Shown here one piece after another: positions 1 through 14,718 of a stretch of 22,407 bases of DNA. The position numbers and the translations under genes are program-made. The notes beneath the pieces are model-generated. The model was given only the letters and a program-made list of their open reading frames with translations. It had not been told where the DNA came from and ran no database searches. Source of the DNA: a virus; IMG/VR virus record IMGVR_UViG_3300030104_002623, positions 2,143-24,549 of that record; one strand, given 5' to 3'. The number at the start of each line of letters is the position of its first letter. Within the stretch, counting starts at the first letter, position 1.

Positions 1-404
1 TTATCATAGTTAAGTGAGTGCCTGTCAAATGTAGAAAGTTCATACTCCTCCGTCATTGATAGACAGTTCGTGGGACAATATTCTACACAGTTTCCGCAGA
101 ATATGCAAGCCCCAAAGTCTATCGAATAATTTCTTAATTCTTTTTTCTTAGTTTGTTTATTCATCACCCAATCGACCACTGGGAGATTTATTGGACATAC
201 TCGGACACACACTTCACAAGCAATACACTTGTCAAATTCGTAGTGAATACGTCCACGATACCTTTCAGATGGTATCAGTTTCTCATAAGGATACTGTATG
301 GTTACAGGTCTCCTTCTCATATGATCAAAGGTTACTTCTAACCCCTGCCACATATATTTGGCAGTGTCTTTAATCTCCTTTAAGTAATTAAAGATTGCTT
401 TCAT
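1..404 (-). CDS. ndhI: NdhI, NDH-1 subunit I (two [4Fe-4S] ferredoxin), partial at left edge
   Basis: NdhI is the peripheral-arm subunit of the cyanobacterial NDH-1 complex that carries two [4Fe-4S] clusters and passes electrons from ferredoxin towards plastoquinone at the thylakoid membrane, supporting cyclic flow around photosystem I. I translated 134 codons from the ATG at 404. Two complete CxxCxxCxxxCP motifs are visible: C60-C63-C66-C70 ([12 protein letters not shown]) and C100-C103-C106-C110 ([12 protein letters not shown]). They are separated by the VVDW...NYSIDFGAC stretch typical of NdhI, and the N-terminus ([39 protein letters not shown]) is also characteristic. Cyanobacterial NdhI is roughly 190-220 residues, so the C-terminal third lies beyond the edge. 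The ATG overlaps the psaJ stop as ATGA, indicating coupled translation. ndhI is known from cyanophages that also carry photosystem I genes. Identification is very secure; a role in infected cells is inference. Confidence 0.93.
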
Positions 405-544
405 TGCATTGGATGAAATAAAAGATCTGGAAAGAAGTAATTAAACTCTATGAGTATAACTGCTGTGATAGTTAGCCAAATGGTTGCTACAACTGGAGCA
501 GATCTAAACCATTTTGTATAAAAGATTTTAAAAAGTGAGTTCAT
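401..544 (-). CDS. psaJ: PsaJ, photosystem I subunit IX, free-standing
   Basis: This 47-residue protein matches photosystem I subunit PsaJ, a single-helix thylakoid protein at the edge of PSI near PsaF that helps dock plastocyanin or cytochrome c6. The visible signature is an N-terminal [15 protein letters not shown] segment leading into one transmembrane helix (about residues 14-34), then [13 protein letters not shown], the conserved PsaJ C-terminus. Length equals host PsaJ (about 41-47). It ends with its own TGA two residues after FHP and is not joined to PsaF; viral photosystem I cassettes often carry a psaJF fusion, so a separate psaJ is unusual. Start and stop overlap the neighbouring genes on both sides (ATGA with the 43-residue gene upstream and ATGA with ndhI downstream). 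The protein is intact with no frameshift. Confidence 0.92.
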
Positions 545-672
545 CGTTTTACATCATGAGCACAACCATCACCAGTATAGTTATCACTATCATAATATCC
601 ATTCTTTGTTCCAAAGTAAAGTGTGGATGCTACGAAAGGTAATGCAACTATGGTCAAGAAAATTCCAAACAT
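541..672 (-). CDS. 43-residue single-helix membrane miniprotein, unknown
   Basis: A short ORF of 43 codons with an N-terminal hydrophobic helix (about residues 1-20, [19 protein letters not shown]) followed by a hydrophilic, Asp/Tyr-rich tail with one Cys ([18 protein letters not shown]). Its ATG overlaps the preceding gene's stop as TAATG, and its TGA overlaps the psaJ ATG as ATGA, which is strong positional support that it is translated. The composition resembles small cyanobacterial and cyanophage membrane proteins of photosynthetic complexes, but I cannot name the family with certainty. Cyanophages with ndhI have been reported to carry a second small NDH-1 subunit gene, ndhP; this or the adjacent 54-residue protein is a candidate. 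That assignment is inference. Confidence 0.75.
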
Positions 673-837: not shown

Positions 838-1332
838 TTAAGAATAAGTGAAGGTTTTGTTTTTAATTTTAGTATCGTTTTCTCCCGTTCTTCCAGGCCT
901 CATCTTTCCTATACCAATGCGTTTATCTTTTCCTAATCCACCTTTTCTCGTTGCTGAAAGAGTGCCTGTTTTTTTCGTTTGAGTAATAACTGAATCTTGT
1001 CCATACTTTTTACCTAACGATTTAATTGCCTTTTTAAACTTTCTCTTTCCCATTTTACCAGAGGTGACAACATGACTTCTTTCTTTCACCTTTTTAGTTT
1101 CTCCAGTTTTCTTATCTCTCTCATCATACCTACCAGTAACTTTTGTAGCACCAGGTAATCCTTTACCTCGTATATCTTTATCTAACTGCTTTGCTCTTGC
1201 TTTATTCTCTGCTTTTGATTTGTCAGCACGACTTCCCGAAAGAATGGCCATTCCTCCTTTATCTGACTTCGCTTTGATTCTACTTAAACTGCTCTCATCC
1301 AATTGAGAGCAGAATTCTTTAAATGTGATCAT
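838..1332 (-). CDS. Basic 164-residue protein, conserved-type hypothetical
   Basis: A strongly basic protein of unknown function. It starts MITFKEF, a start seen often in small T4-like phage proteins, and contains many Lys/Arg-Gly blocks. A central segment (about residues 60-120) looks like a folded core: KVTGRYDERDKKTGE, RSHVVTSGKMGKRKFKKAIKSLGKKYGQDSVI. The ATG overlaps the stop of the upstream CobT-like gene as ATGA, and the TAA is one base before the next ATG, so it belongs to the same transcript. The GKKYGQDSVI segment is weakly reminiscent of DUF3293-type proteins, which is a hint only. High positive charge could mean nucleic acid binding. No catalytic motif was recognised. The gene is real by position, length and codon use; the function is open. 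Confidence 0.8.
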   Translation of the reverse strand: MITFKEFCSQLDESSLSRIKAKSDKGGMAILSGSRADKSKAENKARAKQLDKDIRGKGLPGATKVTGRYDERDKKTGETKKVKERSHVVTSGKMGKRKFKKAIKSLGKKYGQDSVITQTKKTGTLSATRKGGLGKDKRIGIGKMRPGRTGENDTKIKNKTFTYS

Positions 1333-3485
1333 ACCACTAGAGAAATAAATTCACCTAATACCTTTTTATTTAGTTTTTTCGTCTTGAGTGACTTAACAAA
1401 TGCTCTTTTAATCTGTGCTTTTGTTGCATCTTCATTAACATCAAACTCAACATCATCTGCTAAATTTTCTGCTGACAGTGTAAAGTAAGTATCATAACCA
1501 GAGTTTTTAATAGAGAAACTTTTACTTTTTCTCCAATCTCTTTCCATAATTCTATACTCTTTACTGTACTCTGATGCATACATTTTTGCAAATCTTAGAG
1601 CTTGTGATTTAGGTATAACTCTAATACCAATAAAGTTTACAGTAGGGAATGAATCCTTAAGATTATTCAAGAAAGTTTTAGTGAAGTCATGATAACTCCA
1701 ACCAAACTTATATGTTGCTCCCAACTTACGATCTCTCAACATTACTCTATCAGGATTAACATTGCGAGATCCCATGTATGGTTCATCTTCCCAACTACGA
1801 TCTACCTTTATATGATATGGTAATTGACTTGCTTCACCATCAGTTAATATAACACATTGAACTTTTTCAAGTTTATTCTCTTTCTGAAAACGAGGTAGAA
1901 TGCTATGTAAGGCTATCAAAGTTTCATTTAGAGGAGTTCCAGATAATTGAAAATTTCTAGGAATATCATAACGGCAATTAAATCTTTGTCCAAAGGTATA
2001 AGCCAATCTCCAAACATTTTGCATTTGTTTTTCTAATTTCTTACCATTAACTTTACTTGTTAATAAATTCATTAGAGAAAAATGTTCATCAACAACCATC
2101 TGATATTCTTCAGGTGTGTAAATATCTCCACCAGTTAAACCTCTTCCAGAAACATAATAAGAATCATTAGTTCTATTATATTCATTAGTAAAAGCATATA
2201 CATCAAATGGAATATTTACTTTTTTACAAAACCAAACTAGATTAAAGAGTTGTCTTATTGTATCAAGCATGATATGTGACATTGATCCAGACCAATCTAG
2301 AATAAAAACCAAACCATGATTTTTACCATCAGGTAATATAGTTACCTTCTTAAAAAGATCTTCATTATACTTATAAGTATGAAGTTTTGTCGTATCCAAT
2401 ATACCTGTTCTAGCAATTGAAGCACGAGCATACGAACTTGCTGCTTTCTTACATTCAAACTCTTTAACTAAGTAATTAACTTCTTTTGAAGCATTTCTTT
2501 TAAACTCAATGTATTCAGAATCTACTTCTTGAAAAGGATTGTATGAAGGACAACGATAAGATACACCATATTCCTTTATCATATTTTCAGTTTTAACTTT
2601 TTCAATATCAGCAATAATAGAATCAATTTTTACTTTTGGGAGAGTAACATAAACATTCTCTACACCTTGGCCCAACTTTGTTAGATTTTGTAGTTGTGAT
2701 TGAAGTGATTCTGCAGTTTTTACATCTAAATCATCATCATTGTTCTCAGGTATAGAGGGTTGATCTTTTGATTTTTGGCCACTCTCATCCATCTGAGGTG
2801 TTTGCTCAGATTCACCTTGTGATTTACCTTCTTCCTCTTCACCCTCACCTTCACCATCCTGTGACATGTCATTCATATCCATGTCAGGTGATTTTGGTTG
2901 TTGATGAAAATCAATGTCAGCAACTTTTTTCTTTTGATCTTCTAATCTTTCTTTACAGTATTCATACAATTGTCTAGATGCTTCAATGACATCATCAAAA
3001 GTTTGGCAAGAATCTATTAAATTGATAATCTCTCTTTCACGAGTTGTAAAAGATATATCAATGAACGAACCAATCTTAAAATATAGATTAGCCCTATCAG
3101 CAAGATTAAAAGTGTCAAGATCTTCATTTTCTATGGAAAAGAAATCACTTTCATGTAATTCACTATATGCTCTATAAAATATTTTGGGAAGACCAGCATA
3201 CTTACGTTTGATCATTTTCTCAATACGAGCATCCTCAACAACATTCATAAATTGATGAGGTATATCTTCAGGTGGATCTTGATTTGGTGTGAATAATGCA
3301 TGTCCCACCTCATGTGCAACTAACATATCGTAAACATCATTGCTTGCCTTTTCCCAAACAGGTAAAATCAAAACACGAGTATCCACGTTGAATTGTGCTG
3401 TTTCTACATGCTTGTGCTCTACTACTAAGTCCTCAGTGGCTAGTAGTTTTGCGAGTTGTGATTTGATTTCCTGTTGAACTGCCAT
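1329..3485 (-). CDS. CobT-like protein: HExxH metallopeptidase motif plus VWA domain
   Basis: A 718-residue protein built from three parts. Residues about 1-190 contain HEVGH (58-62) followed by NVVEDARIEK (81-90), a zinc-peptidase HExxH arrangement with a downstream Glu; the VEDARIE helix also resembles the ARVE segment of CobT and NorD proteins. Residues about 195-255 are low-complexity and very acidic. Residues about 385 to the end form a von Willebrand A domain with a MIDAS motif: DWSGS (D397, S399, S401), a later SGTPLNE and an LTDGEAS segment. The acidic linker before a C-terminal VWA domain is the CobT layout, so the likely partner is a CobS/MoxR-type AAA+ ATPase; cyanophages often carry cobS, but none is in this window. 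It could act in metal chelation, complex remodelling or proteolysis. It heads the left-hand operon and overlaps the next gene by ATGA. Confidence 0.85.
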   Translation of the reverse strand: MAVQQEIKSQLAKLLATEDLVVEHKHVETAQFNVDTRVLILPVWEKASNDVYDMLVAHEVGHALFTPNQDPPEDIPHQFMNVVEDARIEKMIKRKYAGLPKIFYRAYSELHESDFFSIENEDLDTFNLADRANLYFKIGSFIDISFTTREREIINLIDSCQTFDDVIEASRQLYEYCKERLEDQKKKVADIDFHQQPKSPDMDMNDMSQDGEGEGEEEEGKSQGESEQTPQMDESGQKSKDQPSIPENNDDDLDVKTAESLQSQLQNLTKLGQGVENVYVTLPKVKIDSIIADIEKVKTENMIKEYGVSYRCPSYNPFQEVDSEYIEFKRNASKEVNYLVKEFECKKAASSYARASIARTGILDTTKLHTYKYNEDLFKKVTILPDGKNHGLVFILDWSGSMSHIMLDTIRQLFNLVWFCKKVNIPFDVYAFTNEYNRTNDSYYVSGRGLTGGDIYTPEEYQMVVDEHFSLMNLLTSKVNGKKLEKQMQNVWRLAYTFGQRFNCRYDIPRNFQLSGTPLNETLIALHSILPRFQKENKLEKVQCVILTDGEASQLPYHIKVDRSWEDEPYMGSRNVNPDRVMLRDRKLGATYKFGWSYHDFTKTFLNNLKDSFPTVNFIGIRVIPKSQALRFAKMYASEYSKEYRIMERDWRKSKSFSIKNSGYDTYFTLSAENLADDVEFDVNEDATKAQIKRAFVKSLKTKKLNKKVLGEFISLVV

Positions 3486-3511: not shown

Positions 3512-3561
3512 ATTATACGACGAAACCGCCTCGAAGGGCGGCTTTCTAGACACTTTGTCAA
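3512..3561 (-). promoter_or_regulatory. Possible promoter for the CobT-psaJ-ndhI operon (isolated -10, distant TTGACA)
   Basis: On the minus strand a perfect TATAAT lies at 3517-3512, 26 nt before the ATG at 3485. A perfect TTGACA lies at 3561-3556, but the spacer is 38 nt, more than twice the usual 17. The 8-bp hairpin at 3523-3544 lies inside that spacer. No acceptable -35 is present at normal spacing. The -10 alone may suffice, or the long spacer may need an activator or DNA looping; this is unproven. Confidence 0.4.
3523..3544 (-). terminator. GC-rich hairpin after the sulfotransferase gene, weak terminator candidate
   Basis: On the minus strand an 8-bp stem (AAGCCGCC with GGCGGTTT, one G-U pair) closes a six-base loop CTTCGA. 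It is followed only by TTTCGTCG, so the U-tract is poor. It lies between the stop of the sulfotransferase gene (3602) and the ATG of the CobT-like gene (3485), where a transcript end would be expected. A second imperfect hairpin (GCCTTGC / GCGAAGGC, one bulge) is at 3575-3594. Confidence 0.45.
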
Positions 3562-3601: not shown

Positions 3602-4240
3602 TTAAGCGTTCGTTTTTGTTCCTTCTTGGAATGATGCTGCCAATTCGGGATATAGTTGCTCAATGTCCCTCCTGCACATGGTTCTGATATTATCTATAAG
3701 ATTACCAGTTTTCTTCAATTTATTGGACTCATCATATGACAGTTTTTCATATGGAACATCCTCAACTTTAAAAGGAACTCCAAGAACATCACTCATCCAT
3801 TTACTAAAATCATCCCCAAAACCATTTTCAAATTTCCATAAATGAGTCTTATCAGAAATAAAATCCACTTGTGGTCTATACCAATTAACTGCTTCAGTCA
3901 AAGGAAAATTATCAAGCATCATTGAAAACATCATGGGATCCTCCATCGCTTCTTGAATATCTTCACCATACATTCTTTTCAACCAACTAGATGCACTAAA
4001 GAATCTATTGATAGGATTTCTTATGATGGCTATATGGGGAATACCATCAACATTCAAATGTTTCTCATATAATTCTTTATGAAAATGTGCTAGTTCTATC
4101 CCATCAACACTTTCCCAAATATGTTCTTGCTCTAATTCAAAACCATTCTTTTTAAAATTTTGTTCCAAGAATCTACCAGCAGTTCTGGGAATATGTACAA
4201 AAAGAAATCTTCTTCCAGATGAGTGTTTATAAGTCGGCAT
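3602..4240 (-). CDS. Sulfotransferase (PAPS-dependent type)
   Basis: A 212-residue protein with the two signatures of PAPS-dependent sulfotransferases: an N-terminal phosphosulfate-binding loop HIPRTAG (residues 16-22) after a beta strand (RRFLFVHIP), and the 3'-phosphate motif RNPINRFFSAS (74-84). It would move a sulfuryl group from PAPS to a hydroxyl or amino group, probably on a sugar or glycan given its neighbours; the pattern fits the Sulfotransfer_2 (carbohydrate) group better than the cytosolic steroid group. I place the start at the ATG at 4240 (MPTYKHSSGRR). This overlaps the epimerase stop by 14 nt; the longer reading frame begins with TTG. It is the last gene of the gp55-gp46-glycan operon. 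The acceptor is unknown: a phage glycan, a modified structural protein or a host surface polysaccharide are all possible. Confidence 0.82.
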   Translation of the reverse strand: MPTYKHSSGRRFLFVHIPRTAGRFLEQNFKKNGFELEQEHIWESVDGIELAHFHKELYEKHLNVDGIPHIAIIRNPINRFFSASSWLKRMYGEDIQEAMEDPMMFSMMLDNFPLTEAVNWYRPQVDFISDKTHLWKFENGFGDDFSKWMSDVLGVPFKVEDVPYEKLSYDESNKLKKTGNLIDNIRTMCRRDIEQLYPELAASFQEGTKTNA

Positions 4241-4958
4241 TGCCTTTAGCAATCTCTAAAACATCCTTAGTTGGAAACCAACCAGTGGATCTTAATATAG
4301 TTGTGTCTGCTACATTATCGTCTGCCTCACCTGGTGTATGCTCATTTATTGGGAGATTATATTGACCAAATGCTTCTGCTAAATCTTTCACAGGATAAGA
4401 CTTACCATATCCAACAGAAACAGGGCCTTTTATATTTTTTGCCCACAAATATCTGATCGCACGACAAACATCTTTAACATGAATCCAATCTCTTTTATGT
4501 TTGGTTATATATTTTGCCTTTTTATTTTTCAATAAAGCAAACATCATATTGTCTCTACACTCAGGGCCATAAACAGTTGTCATTCTCATTCCTACTGAAT
4601 TTGGAGGAGCCATAATTTCATTAATCCATTTACTCATACCATAAGGGTTATCCCAATATGGGCCTTCTACAGCACTAGAGGAAGCATATATTAAACGTGT
4701 ATTTGTTTCTCTACACCATTCAAATAATGGTTTTGCCTTCACTACATTATTTTGATAATACTCATGAGGTTTTTCTCTACTCTCTCTTATATCTGCCCAT
4801 GCTGCTAAGTGGATAACTAAACCATAATCACCACCTGTAAAGCTTTCAACATTATTAGGATAATCTATACCATGAACATTATACCCATGTGTTCTTCTCC
4901 AATCAGCAAACACATGTCTGCCTATGAAACCTCTATGTCCTGTAATTAATACTTTCAT
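4227..4958 (-). CDS. NAD-dependent sugar epimerase/dehydratase (extended SDR)
   Basis: A 243-residue extended short-chain dehydrogenase/reductase. From the ATG at 4958 it starts MKVLITGHRGFIG, the Rossmann glycine motif (TGxxGxxG, residues 6-13). IHLAAW (49-54), a serine strand ASSSAVEGP (92-100) and the catalytic YGMSK (Y106, K110) follow, then RMTTVYGP (125-132) and RDWIHVKDVC (156-165), typical of NDP-sugar epimerases and dehydratases. Length is shorter than the usual 300-340. It probably interconverts or reduces a nucleotide sugar. The ATG at 4958 forms an ATGA overlap with the upstream dehydrogenase stop; a longer version would need a TTG start at 4970 and is less likely. The substrate cannot be read from sequence. 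Confidence 0.87.
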   Translation of the reverse strand: MKVLITGHRGFIGRHVFADWRRTHGYNVHGIDYPNNVESFTGGDYGLVIHLAAWADIRESREKPHEYYQNNVVKAKPLFEWCRETNTRLIYASSSAVEGPYWDNPYGMSKWINEIMAPPNSVGMRMTTVYGPECRDNMMFALLKNKKAKYITKHKRDWIHVKDVCRAIRYLWAKNIKGPVSVGYGKSYPVKDLAEAFGQYNLPINEHTPGEADDNVADTTILRSTGWFPTKDVLEIAKGNADL

Positions 4959-5743
4959 GTCACTGGCCAATCAATAACTTTTCTAATTTGTTCATTATAC
5001 TTCCATACCTCTTTCAGCATGTCAGCATTTACATTATGGGATTCCATTTGTTTAATTAAAGAATTTATATCTTTAGGAAAACAAGTTCCACCAAATCCTC
5101 TATCATTATCTATACCAGGAACTTTGGTATGTGATTTACCTATTCTACTATCCGCAGTAACTCCTTCACATACCAAATCATAATCCATACCAACCACTTG
5201 GCATAAATCATATATTTTATTAAAATATGCTACCTTATAAGCAAGGAAAGTATTAGAGAAATATTTTATAGCTTCGCTCTCATCTGAAGAAGTAATGATA
5301 CTTGGTATTTCAGGAAAACACTGCTCAAAGAAACGAATAAAATCAATACATAATTCTTCATCGCCACCAACAATATTTCTTTGAGCATTAGCATAATCCT
5401 CTATGGCATTTCTTGCAGTGAGAAATTCTGGATTATGAATTACATTATGCCTTTCAGTATATTTTTTAGTTGTTCCTATGGGAACTGTTGATTTAATAAC
5501 AAATGTTCCTGTTAAAAGATCAGGAAGATTATCAAAAAAGTTATCAAGGATTGATAAATCACAACTTCCATCCATCTTCATTGGAGTTGGAAGACATACA
5601 AATATAAAATCTTGGTTTATTACCTCTTCTAAAGTATTCAGAGATCTATTTTTATCTAGATCAAATACTTTACATTCTGCTTTATCGCGTAGATTTTGAT
5701 ATACAGCATTACCTACAAAGCCATTACCAACAATTCCAATCAT
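4955..5743 (-). CDS. Short UDP-glucose/GDP-mannose 6-dehydrogenase-like protein
   Basis: A 262-residue member of the UDP-glucose/GDP-mannose dehydrogenase family, which oxidises the sugar C6 to a carboxylate with two NAD+. The N-terminal NAD domain has GIVGNGFVG (residues 3-11), and FVCLPTPM and STVPIGTT follow. Catalytic residues appear to be kept: E106 in NPEFL, K160 and N164 in EAIKYFSNTFLA, and C221 in GFGGTCFPKD. The C-terminal UDP-binding domain of the usual 390-450-residue enzymes is absent: the protein stops about 40 residues after the Cys motif, and its TGA overlaps the next ATG, so this is a stable short form and not a sequencing break. Without that domain it may dimerise differently, use another sugar, or act as a different oxidoreductase. 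It overlaps gp46 by ATGA. Confidence 0.88.
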   Translation of the reverse strand: MIGIVGNGFVGNAVYQNLRDKAECKVFDLDKNRSLNTLEEVINQDFIFVCLPTPMKMDGSCDLSILDNFFDNLPDLLTGTFVIKSTVPIGTTKKYTERHNVIHNPEFLTARNAIEDYANAQRNIVGGDEELCIDFIRFFEQCFPEIPSIITSSDESEAIKYFSNTFLAYKVAYFNKIYDLCQVVGMDYDLVCEGVTADSRIGKSHTKVPGIDNDRGFGGTCFPKDINSLIKQMESHNVNADMLKEVWKYNEQIRKVIDWPVT

Positions 5744-12292: not shown

Positions 12293-12842
12293 TTCCTGCT
12301 AAATCAGTTATATTGTACATAGTATACTTGAAATCCACGTCAGCTGTAAAGTATTCTACATCAGTATCTGTAGCATCAAATGTTATAGTTGTCAACCTAT
12401 AGGGCCATAGATCAGTAAAATTGACATTAAACTTTGCCACCAGATTACTTGATAATATCTGGAGCGTTCCATCTGAATATATGTTTTGCCTATCTTTTTT
12501 GAAGTTACCTTTTAAAACTGCTTTGCTTTCAAAATCTCTAAACTCTTGAATACTCTCAGGAAAACCGAGTCCACGTATCCAGTTTTGCAGTTCCATATAG
12601 TTTTCTAGATTTTCATCAACTAAAAATCTTAAACTTAAATCTCCAAAAGAAATCTTATCACCAGGTGTTGGAATATCTCTTAGGTATGTTGGTTGTGTTG
12701 CTTCGCCTAAATTTAAATCAGGTATATTTGCTTGATTGCAAAAGAAAGCAGCCTTAGGACTTCTCTTAAGGTTGAATTTGAATCCAGTTGGTGCTAAAAA
12801 ATTTCTATTCTCTAATTGAGAATCTCTGCCTCCAATAGCCAT
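12282..12842 (-). CDS. 3: gp3-like tail completion and sheath stabiliser protein
   Basis: A 186-residue, beta-rich protein with the tail tube/terminator look: residues 10-25 (LENRNFLAPTGFKFNL), then AAFFCNQANIPDLNLGEATQPT, PTPGDKISFGDLSLRFLVDENLENYMELQNWIRGLGFPES, and the C-terminal LTTITFDATDTDVEYFTADVDFKYTMYNI. The PGDKxxFgdlslrFlvDENLeNYmelqnWirgLGFPe stretch is a cyanophage signature for the gene next to gp23, annotated as gp3, which caps the tail tube where the head joins. T4 gp3 is 176 residues. The fold is shared with gp19, so a paralogous tube or baseplate protein is the alternative. A late-type TCTAAATA box lies 24 nt upstream of the ATG, and uvsY overlaps its end. Confidence 0.76.
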   Translation of the reverse strand: MAIGGRDSQLENRNFLAPTGFKFNLKRSPKAAFFCNQANIPDLNLGEATQPTYLRDIPTPGDKISFGDLSLRFLVDENLENYMELQNWIRGLGFPESIQEFRDFESKAVLKGNFKKDRQNIYSDGTLQILSSNLVAKFNVNFTDLWPYRLTTITFDATDTDVEYFTADVDFKYTMYNITDLAGNDL

Positions 12843-12866
12843 TAGTTCATGCAGGTCTCCGTATTC

Positions 12867-12874
12867 TATTTAGA
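12867..12874 (-). promoter_or_regulatory. Late promoter-like box TCTAAATA before gp3
   Basis: TCTAAATA on the minus strand (six of eight to TATAAATA) ends 24 nt before the gp3-like ATG. It starts directly after the U-tract of the upstream terminator (12876-12902), so a terminator and a new start lie back to back. The identical octamer occurs before gp19. Confidence 0.5.
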
Positions 12875-12875
12875 T

Positions 12876-12902
12876 AAAAAAAAGACCCCCTCGAAAGGGG
12901 GT
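12876..12902 (-). terminator. Rho-independent terminator after the 91-residue gene
   Basis: On the minus strand a 7-bp perfect stem (ACCCCCT / AGGGGGT, 12902-12896 with 12891-12885) closes a TTCG tetraloop and is followed by C and eight T. It sits just after the stop of the 91-residue gene. On the plus strand the stem is followed by GATTTTTT, so it may also work in reverse. Confidence 0.9.
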
Positions 12903-12908
12903 GATTTT

Positions 12909-13184
12909 TTATTTTATCCTTTGAACAACAATACCCTCTTCTTCATTATGACCATAATTTCCTTTTATTGTTCTATATTTTCTACCTTGTGCTGTTAATC
13001 TACAAGGTGCTTGGGGACGATAATTGTGCTTTTTTTGTGATTTTGTCATATCAGTAAATGGTATAAAAAACCATTGTCCAACTTCTGTCAATAAATCAAA
13101 GTCATTTTCTTTTTGTGCTTTTCCTCTTGTAGTAGTTTGGAACAAACTTAGGAGTTGATCCTCATTGAAAATTTCGCGAGCCAT
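12909..13184 (-). CDS. 91-residue hypothetical protein
   Basis: A small gene of unknown function standing alone between gp23 and the gp3-like gene, with an intrinsic terminator on each side. The protein starts MAREIFNEDQLLSLFQTTTRGKAQ and has a core EVGQWFFIPFTDMTK, then a basic stretch KKHNYRPQAPCRL, RKYRTIKGNYGHNEEEG and VVQRIK. The basic, aromatic-rich sequence could be a small DNA-binding or capsid-associated protein; no family recognised. ATG at 13184. A T4-type box (CATAAATC, minus strand of 13194-13201) is weak and only nine bases from the start, so its own promoter is unclear; it may be read through from gp23. Confidence 0.72.
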   Translation of the reverse strand: MAREIFNEDQLLSLFQTTTRGKAQKENDFDLLTEVGQWFFIPFTDMTKSQKKHNYRPQAPCRLTAQGRKYRTIKGNYGHNEEEGIVVQRIK

Positions 13185-13216
13185 GATAAAAATGATTTAT
13201 GTGCAAATTATAGCAT

Positions 13217-13245
13217 AAAAAAAGTCCCCCTGCAATAGGAGGACT
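13217..13245 (-). terminator. Rho-independent terminator after gp23
   Basis: On the minus strand a 9-bp stem (AGTCCTCCT with AGGGGGACT, one G-U pair) around the loop ATTGC, followed by seven T. It lies 27 nt after the gp23 stop codon and should limit read-through from the abundant capsid transcript. Confidence 0.88.
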
Positions 13246-13272
13246 TGATTGAAACAATTCGTAATATCCGAA

Positions 13273-14718
13273 TTACATGAGGTTCTTAACAGCAACACGT
13301 CTGTAGTAACGGTTCTGGTTAACATTAAGTCCACCAAGACTCTGGTTAATACCTTCAGCAAATGGGTTTGCGACAATACCATATCTTGTCTTAAATCCAA
13401 TTTTTGGCTGGAAGGAGTTCTCACCCACCGCACGAACCATCTGTAGTGGAACGTATGGGCAGTAGAAGAGACCAGCATCATAAGGAGATGTACCTTTGTA
13501 TCCAACAACGTAGTACTGATTACCACCAGTTGGAGCACCATTAGCAGCAGTTAGGTTTGCAGCATATGGGTCAATGTAGACACGGAATTTACCCATTAGG
13601 GTTCCAGCAAATGTATTGCCTGTGTCATCAACATTGAGATTTGCATTAAGTGCAGGAGTGTAATCAAGCACACCAGCCATGGTCAACGCAGAAGCAACGT
13701 CTGCAGAGCACATGATGATGTTGCCCTTTCCGCGACGAGTTCTTTGTGCAATCGCGTTAGCATCTCTTTCAATCTGGAATAATAGACCCTTGAATTTCTC
13801 AACAGACCATCTTCCGTTTGAGTCGATGTCTAGGTCAAATGTACCAGCATTTGCTACGTTTTGTACAGCACCTTGCTCTGCAACCTTGTAGATAGTTCTA
13901 ATGACTTCCCTGTTGATTTCAGCAAGGATTTCAGTAGAAAGGATGTTAGCAAGTTCTGCCTCTGCATTCAAGCCATGAATTGCTTTCAAGTCTTGAGCGA
14001 GTTCTAGACTGTACTCTGCCTTTAAAGCACGAGACTTAGCAGTAACGGTGACTTTCTCGATTGAGAATGCCATCTGGTTGAAGGCATTTGTAGTCGTGCC
14101 GTCAAGTTTTTCTGCGTCGTCTGTACGCATACCCTGACCAACACTGTAGCCAGTAGATGCAGCAGAACCAACAGGGTTAAGAACTGCAGGGTTTGTAGCA
14201 CTAGCACCAGTTGTACCCATACCAGCAGCAGTGTCTGTCATGCCGTTGGTTAGGTCGAAGCCGAAGTCCTGTCCAGAATATGCTGAATCTGCTTCGTTGT
14301 AGAATGCTTCTGTACCACCCATGCCATTTGGTCCAGGACCAACATAGCGTGAACGCATTGCGAAGATAAGTCCAGTAGGACCACTCATTGGTTGAACACC
14401 AGCTAGGTCGTATGCGACCAAGTTTGGCATTGCACGTCTAATTAATGAAATTAGAACGGGGTCGAAACCTGCTGTAGGGCCAGCTGCGGTTGCGTCTGCA
14501 CTAAATCCAGCGTTACTACCTGAACTAGTGTTTTGGTTTGGTTGTTCTGCAAGGAACGAACCTGATTGAGCAAAATCTGTTTGCTCGCGTAAGAATTTCT
14601 CTTGGTTTTCTAACAGGACAGCTGTGACTGCTTTACGATGTGAATCCTTGATTTCATCAAGACCTTCATAATTGAGAAGCGGAGCCCACTTTTCCTGCAA
14701 TTGTTCTGATTGGAACAT
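13273..14718 (-). CDS. 23: gp23 major capsid protein
   Basis: The major head protein, 481 residues (T4 gp23 is 521), forming the hexamers of the icosahedral head. The start MFQSEQLQEKWAPLLN is the cyanophage gp23 start, and the body has the usual segments: RRAMPNLVAYDLAGVQPMSGPTGLIFAMRSRY (after residue about 93), VTAKSRALKAEYSLELAQDLKAIHGLNAE, EILAEINREVIRTIY and KTRYGIVANPFAEG near the end. The N-terminal region contains FLAE|QP (residues 55-60); a gp21-type site (L or I)xE predicts removal of the first 58 residues during maturation. I saw no late box in the 47-nt gap to gp22, so it is probably read from the gp22 promoter. A terminator follows it. Confidence 0.97.
   Translation of the reverse strand: MFQSEQLQEKWAPLLNYEGLDEIKDSHRKAVTAVLLENQEKFLREQTDFAQSGSFLAEQPNQNTSSGSNAGFSADATAAGPTAGFDPVLISLIRRAMPNLVAYDLAGVQPMSGPTGLIFAMRSRYVGPGPNGMGGTEAFYNEADSAYSGQDFGFDLTNGMTDTAAGMGTTGASATNPAVLNPVGSAASTGYSVGQGMRTDDAEKLDGTTTNAFNQMAFSIEKVTVTAKSRALKAEYSLELAQDLKAIHGLNAEAELANILSTEILAEINREVIRTIYKVAEQGAVQNVANAGTFDLDIDSNGRWSVEKFKGLLFQIERDANAIAQRTRRGKGNIIMCSADVASALTMAGVLDYTPALNANLNVDDTGNTFAGTLMGKFRVYIDPYAANLTAANGAPTGGNQYYVVGYKGTSPYDAGLFYCPYVPLQMVRAVGENSFQPKIGFKTRYGIVANPFAEGINQSLGGLNVNQNRYYRRVAVKNLM

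Follow-up and report, generated by a model that had tools for sequence, protein, structure and literature searches.

Several described systems pair an AAA+ ATPase of the MoxR type with a protein that carries a VWA domain. In the cobaltochelatase system, CobT (PF06213 and PF11775) is built of an N-domain, an acidic linker and a VWA domain in that order, and it works with the AAA+ partner CobS. NorQD likewise joins a VWA fold to a MoxR-type partner, and to our knowledge NorD lacks a protease domain of the kind considered below. An arrangement with such a domain has been described by Iyer et al. (2021; PMC7824862), who report from group 2.2 jumbo phages an AAA+ MoxR gene whose vWA partner carries a metallopeptidase domain at its N-terminus, and who assign the cyanophages and Ochrobactrum phage OC to group 2.1. 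Cyanophages carry a gene of family PHROG 459 (T4-GC 146), named either ‘peptidase’ or CobT, together with a gene for a CobS partner, and the literature treats the two as a viral gene set for vitamin B12. The ‘peptidase’ name of the cyanophage gene is called a misannotation by Liu et al. (2021).

We analysed a window of 22,407 nucleotides from a 27.9-kb virus fragment (IMG/VR record IMGVR_UViG_3300030104_002623). The open reading frames of the record, read against locus L002, display the T4-like gene order gp18 to gp23, uvsY, uvsW, gp55, gp47 and gp46. An open reading frame on the minus strand (1329..3485) encodes a protein of 718 amino acids that the phrog_459 profile matches over its full length (residues 3-717, E 1e-257). 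This protein shares its genome place and its CobS partner with the cyanophage ‘peptidase’ and differs in nothing essential, except that the window lineage has psaJ and ndhI between the peptidase gene and cobS. Comparison with the nearest relative (L008) gives a crude pN/pS of 0.10, which indicates purifying selection. Searches of the protein against Pfam matched no family, including PF06213 and PF11775 up to E 10, and sequence searches of NCBIfam and the PDB gave no useful match.

A tblastn search located the gene in 463 of 50,697 phage records, nearly all of them T4-like cyanophages. These records are named for Synechococcus (365), ‘Cyanophage’ (61), Prochlorococcus (24), Marine (7) and Pelagibacter (3), with single records for Stenotrophomonas, Pseudoalteromonas and Ochrobactrum. 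The order gp47-gp46-peptidase-cobS-gp45 recurs in S-PM2 and P-HM2, and in P-SSM2 three genes separate the peptidase gene from cobS. A scan of viral_contigs with the Ochrobactrum protein found no relative, and one with the Microcystis phage protein found a single weak one. We also considered a close family of cellular kin and rejected it, because nearly all of the 31 matches in genome_contigs lie on apparently phage-like contigs in MAG bins. Phage-like contigs with the PHROG 459 gene (L171-L199) turn up in MAGs assigned to a wide range of unrelated phyla, and MAG-based gene counts may therefore mislead.

The encoded protein consists of an N-terminal metallopeptidase-like domain, an acidic linker and a VWA domain, in that order and all on the minus strand. 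A sequence-only reading of this DNA had described a VWA protein of the CobT kind that combines HEVGH and VEDARIE motifs with an acidic linker and an intact MIDAS, a description borne out by the open reading frame and the alignments. The N-terminal domain (residues 1-193; 2907..3485) is predicted by an AlphaFold2 model to adopt a gluzincin-like fold. HEVGH (residues 58-62; 3300..3314) would supply two zinc ligands, H58 and H62, and the catalyst E59, whereas the predicted third ligand, E84, belongs to NVVEDARIE (residues 81-89; 3219..3245). The acidic linker follows at about residues 192-255 (2721..2912) and is modelled with low confidence (pLDDT <50 at 192-251). The nearest solved structures to the VWA domain, which spans about residues 388-640 (1566..2324), are those of NorD VWA domains complexed with NorQ. 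Its MIDAS is complete, comprising the DWSGS motif (residues 397-401; 2283..2297), T517 (1935..1937) and D549 of a TDG motif (1839..1841), and D397, S399, S401, T517 and D549 are invariant across 36 aligned relatives.

The putative zinc-protease site is conserved to the same degree. H58, E59, H62, N81, E84, D85 and R87 do not vary among the 36 relatives, and when 49 N-domains from three subfamilies were compared (15-97% identity to the window protein), just nine columns remained invariant (P42, H58, E59, H62, T66, N81, E84, D85 and G98). A chance origin of HExxH can be ruled out, since the motif is expected 0.022 times at the composition of the protein and yet is invariant in all 49 N-domains. 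In the AlphaFold2 model of the N-domain (mean pLDDT 86.7, pTM 0.81), HEVGH lies in one helix (residues 49-65) and E84 in the next (residues 77-95), 22 residues beyond H62, a layout that fits a gluzincin. The top Foldseek matches of this model are selecase (4qhi; prob 1.00, E 0.025, the best E value obtained) and ArdC (6sna). Zincins also make up nearly all of the best 20 VIA rows, including ZMPSTE24 (Z 6.5), selecase (5.8), ArdC (5.7), PprI/IrrE (5.6), jannalysin (5.5) and Wss1 (3.8), as well as minigluzincins and BlaR1, with every Z score at or below 6.5 and thus below 8. Rows for TetR, GntR and similar proteins were set aside as helical chance matches. No Pfam metallopeptidase model matches the protein, the best being PF01434 (E 0.14), which aligns away from the N-domain site. 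Motif placement and zincin matches together fit the prediction that the N-domain is a gluzincin-type metallopeptidase. The protease site that the literature dismisses as an annotation error thus appears, from its conservation, to be real. We reject plain misannotation, as Liu et al. (2021) describe it; both names, CobT and peptidase, carry some truth.

A search for an AAA+ partner gene had been proposed as a check on the sequence-only reading, and such a gene is present in the same record. A CobS-like gene (G000:C1:614-1723, minus strand) lies 420 bases outside the window, and its product matches phrog_249 (E 4.5e-134), AAA_5 (E 3e-17) and CbbQ_C (PF08406, E 1e-5). The peptidase gene was present in 86 loci, and cobS accompanies it in 71 of these; in the remaining 15 the sequence ends within 1500 bases downstream. 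The lack of a partner is thus excluded as a refutation. The two genes also reach equal totals in Synechococcus, ‘Cyanophage’ and Prochlorococcus records (365, 61 and 24), a comparison of totals rather than of individual records. In Staphylococcus, Mycobacterium and Microbacterium phages with an AAA+ match, no VWA protein was found among the four neighbours translated.

Kinship with CobT is visible mainly through more distant relatives. A phage-plasmid relative matches CobT_C (PF11775, E 8e-36), and proteins from Pseudovibrio and Thorsellia that have both HExxH and NxxEDxRIE score 32.5 and 48.9 bits against PF06213, above its cut-off of 26.1. When the cyanophage N-domain was compared by hhalign, it matched the plasmid type (prob 98%, E 2.5e-13) and the phage-plasmid type (97%), whereas the direct match to CobT was weak (1%), and the link is therefore transitive, through the plasmid-type proteins that exceed the PF06213 cut-off. 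We drew true CobT proteins from 30 loci out of the 60 matching genomes among 61 searched, and HExxH is absent from all 30. N81, E84, R87, E89 and G98 are nevertheless kept in the 8/30 true CobT proteins that were aligned. The residues opposite HExxH depend on the aligner, being SMALR with MAFFT and an HDPAVH stretch with hhalign (plasmid type), neither of which is HExxH.

The sequence-only reading had regarded the zinc motif as an addition to a CobT-like protein. The comparison points the other way, as HExxH is usual in the phage and plasmid relatives and true CobT is the member without it. Because the motif is missing from 30/30 CobT proteins and mostly retained by the phage and plasmid relatives, the protease site is probably old, by parsimony, and was probably lost in CobT. 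Two relatives have lost the HExxH histidines while keeping the AAA+ partner, namely those of nickie (L089 2454-4538) and an Acinetobacter phage-plasmid (L207 8001-9923), which suggests that the protease is dispensable in some elements; by parsimony these too are losses, whether or not separate from that in CobT. In the open-licence literature, searched by title and the start of the abstract, we found no report that links CobT to a lost protease.

These relationships bear on the proposal of Liu et al. (2021) that phage CobS and CobT join the CobN of the host to raise B12 output. The matches of phage-plasmid relatives to CobT_C and of plasmid-type relatives with HExxH to PF06213 speak for it. 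However, CobN was found in 0/8 phage records searched, and in the same number of records no class II ribonucleotide reductase exceeded the NrdJ cut-off (0/8). In addition, the phage CobS scores 72.6 against a PD_CobS cut-off of 558.55, neither CobT model of Pfam matches the window protein, and its HExxH is shared by 0/30 true CobT proteins. Although the CobN of the host could serve in place of a phage copy, the absence of CobN and NrdJ from the eight records weakens the B12 reading, and we consider a cobaltochelatase role very unlikely.

Downstream of the peptidase gene, the genes on the same strand form a chain with end-to-start overlaps or gaps of 1-2 bases. In the window lineage, the genes between the peptidase gene and cobS are a SAM-lyase-like gene, two small open reading frames, psaJ and ndhI. 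The photosynthesis cassette occupies positions 1-836 and contains two small open reading frames of no known family (541-672 and 672-836), psaJ (401-544; PF01701, E 3e-16) and an NdhI-like gene that extends to position 404 (Fer4, E 1e-13). The gene next to the peptidase gene (838-1332, minus strand), whose sequence overlaps the peptidase stop, belongs to the S-adenosylmethionine lyase family (PF23780, E 7e-17). It occupies the same place in several relatives and is possibly an anti-restriction gene. An insertion that separates gp46 from the peptidase gene (3602-5743, minus strand) carries genes for a sulfotransferase-like protein, an epimerase and a UDP-glucose dehydrogenase. In locus L006, outside the window, a gene for a ferredoxin-dependent bilin reductase (1-666, minus strand; PF05996, E 2e-9) follows cobS.

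The position of psaJ and ndhI had been taken as a hint that the protein helps to assemble metal-bearing complexes of the photosystem. This hint is not supported. Among the loci compared, psaJ and ndhI are confined to the present record and the near-identical L008, whereas the peptidase gene is found in 463 phage records, including those of Pelagibacter and Ochrobactrum, and the two photosynthesis genes therefore tell little about the role of the peptidase. The photosystem idea is one form of a broader explanation, by which the pair would insert metal into, or activate, a metalloenzyme of the phage or the host in the manner of NorQD and CbbQO, with the zinc site handling metal rather than performing proteolysis. 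The closeness of the VWA domain to NorD in NorQD structures and the CbbQ_C match of the phage CobS are in its favour. Yet true CobT works without the protease site that the phage families keep, and with the cassette confined to the window lineage we judge this explanation unlikely.

Regulatory sequences provide information on the time at which the gene is expressed. Upstream of the peptidase gene on the minus strand lies TATAAT, a host-type -10 element (3512..3517), and just upstream of this element is a terminator-like hairpin of eight pairs, including one G-T (3523..3544). Of the 80 distinct 80-mers that precede the gene across the family, 34 contain TATAAT or TATACT, compared with 6.2% of random 80-mers. 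The same elements precede gp55 in 23/27 upstream regions, gp45 in 22/66 and cobS in 53/58. As a late motif we used CTAAATA or NATAAATA, chosen from recall and from the structural genes of the window. It is found upstream of gp18, gp19 and gp20 in 5/5 regions, but upstream of gp21 in 0/3, gp22 in 1/2 and gp23 in 1/4. It also precedes cobS in 14/58 regions, so that some late synthesis within the pair is possible.

A hairpin followed at any distance by a -10-like hexamer occurs in 40/82 family upstream 100-mers and in 28/1000 random ones. This combination may unite terminator and promoter in a compact form, or it may define a separate class of promoter. The hairpin ends 5-9 bases ahead of the hexamer in 35/82 distinct upstream regions of the peptidase gene, and a CAGTT-A-AA element lies farther upstream in 28/82 of them (random, 1/1000). 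Elsewhere in the window (12842-12932 and 13184-13274), a hairpin also precedes the promoter of two other genes, in one case with CTAAATA and in the other with TATAAT.

Timing bears on the idea that the pair is a chaperone-protease for virion assembly, in which the AAA+ and VWA proteins would fold structural proteins and the peptidase would trim them. Iyer et al. (2021) propose this explicitly for the group 2.2 pair, whose architecture, as published, is the same as that seen here, so that the cyanophage protein is a further member of an arrangement already described in other jumbo phages. That paper also reports that tail assembly of an archaeal virus needs a MoxR-vWA pair, and the late motif upstream of some cobS genes adds to the case. 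However, the late motif precedes the peptidase gene in only 1/80 distinct regions, near the random rate of about 1.8%, and the gene stands in a replication and recombination block. Relatives are also found in conjugative plasmids, which make no virions. A role in virion assembly is, on this evidence, rather unlikely.

The relatives in other mobile elements reveal a recurrent setting. With a plasmid-type query, 1442 plasmid records were matched, of which 1215 are typed as conjugative. Plasmid and island modules of VWA, DUF3150 and AAA+ genes (IncC and IncHI type, Pseudovibrio, Thorsellia) resemble the phage system in having HExxH with a VWA domain, an AAA+ gene nearby in most cases, adjoining ssb, bet/RecT or exo genes and an N-domain profile match, but they differ in the presence of a DUF3150 gene and in their low sequence identity. 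Five plasmid stretches have ssb, bet/RecT, exo, DUF3150 or toprim nearby, the Pseudovibrio and Thorsellia loci have RecT, YqaJ, an AAA+ gene and DUF3150, and the nickie and B1VFA loci have dnaE. A literature search on DUF3150 returned no relevant paper. We compared 17 loci from phages, phage-plasmids and conjugative plasmids, which are not a random sample and whose T4-like members share one ancestral order. Replication or recombination genes (dnaE, ligase, clamp, gp46/47, ssb, bet/RecT, exo/YqaJ, toprim or a RecA-family ATPase) are neighbours in 16/17 of these loci, the exception being the Acinetobacter phage-plasmid. An AAA+ gene is present in 15/17, with none in the stretches read of IncC E. 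coli and Vibrio dhg.

Domain make-up, invariant site, partner gene, synteny and promoter class can all be read from the sequence, and together they very probably describe a unit of a MoxR-type AAA+ ATPase, a VWA domain and an intact metallopeptidase. Rather than a role in B12 synthesis, photosystem assembly or virion assembly, we favour a protease that remodels proteins under the drive of an AAA+ motor and acts in DNA metabolism. In this proposed machine, the 718-amino-acid protein would be the substrate-handling subunit, and the CobS-like ATPase, encoded downstream of the psaJ-ndhI cassette, would form the motor. The VWA domain would dock on the motor and contact substrates through its MIDAS metal. 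The N-domain, as an active gluzincin-type protease with zinc bound by H58, H62 and E84 and with E59 as its catalyst, would cut the proteins that the motor remodels. Zinc binding, proteolysis, complex formation and substrates are our predictions. The protein would be made together with those of replication and recombination, and its substrates would most likely be DNA-metabolism proteins of the phage or of its host. A role in DNA metabolism is a tentative assignment, somewhat short of an even chance, and the statement as a whole, that of a MoxR-machine subunit with an active protease that acts on DNA-metabolism proteins, we put close to an even chance.

A more specific and speculative version, which we think improbable, would make the pair a DNA-linked protein-clearing machine. 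The motor would clear phage or plasmid DNA of proteins while that DNA replicates and recombines by annealing, the zinc domain would cut the proteins removed, and CobT would be a tamed, protease-dead descendant. In eukaryotes, Wss1/SPRTN is thought to act likewise with Cdc48.

If the protease reading is true, the role assigned so far to a core gene of these abundant marine cyanophages is wrong, and ‘cobS’ in viral metagenomes would have to be treated with caution as an indicator of B12 synthesis. It would also suggest an origin for CobT, and it would point to one widespread AAA+/protease module that resides beside recombination genes in phages, phage-plasmids and conjugative plasmids.
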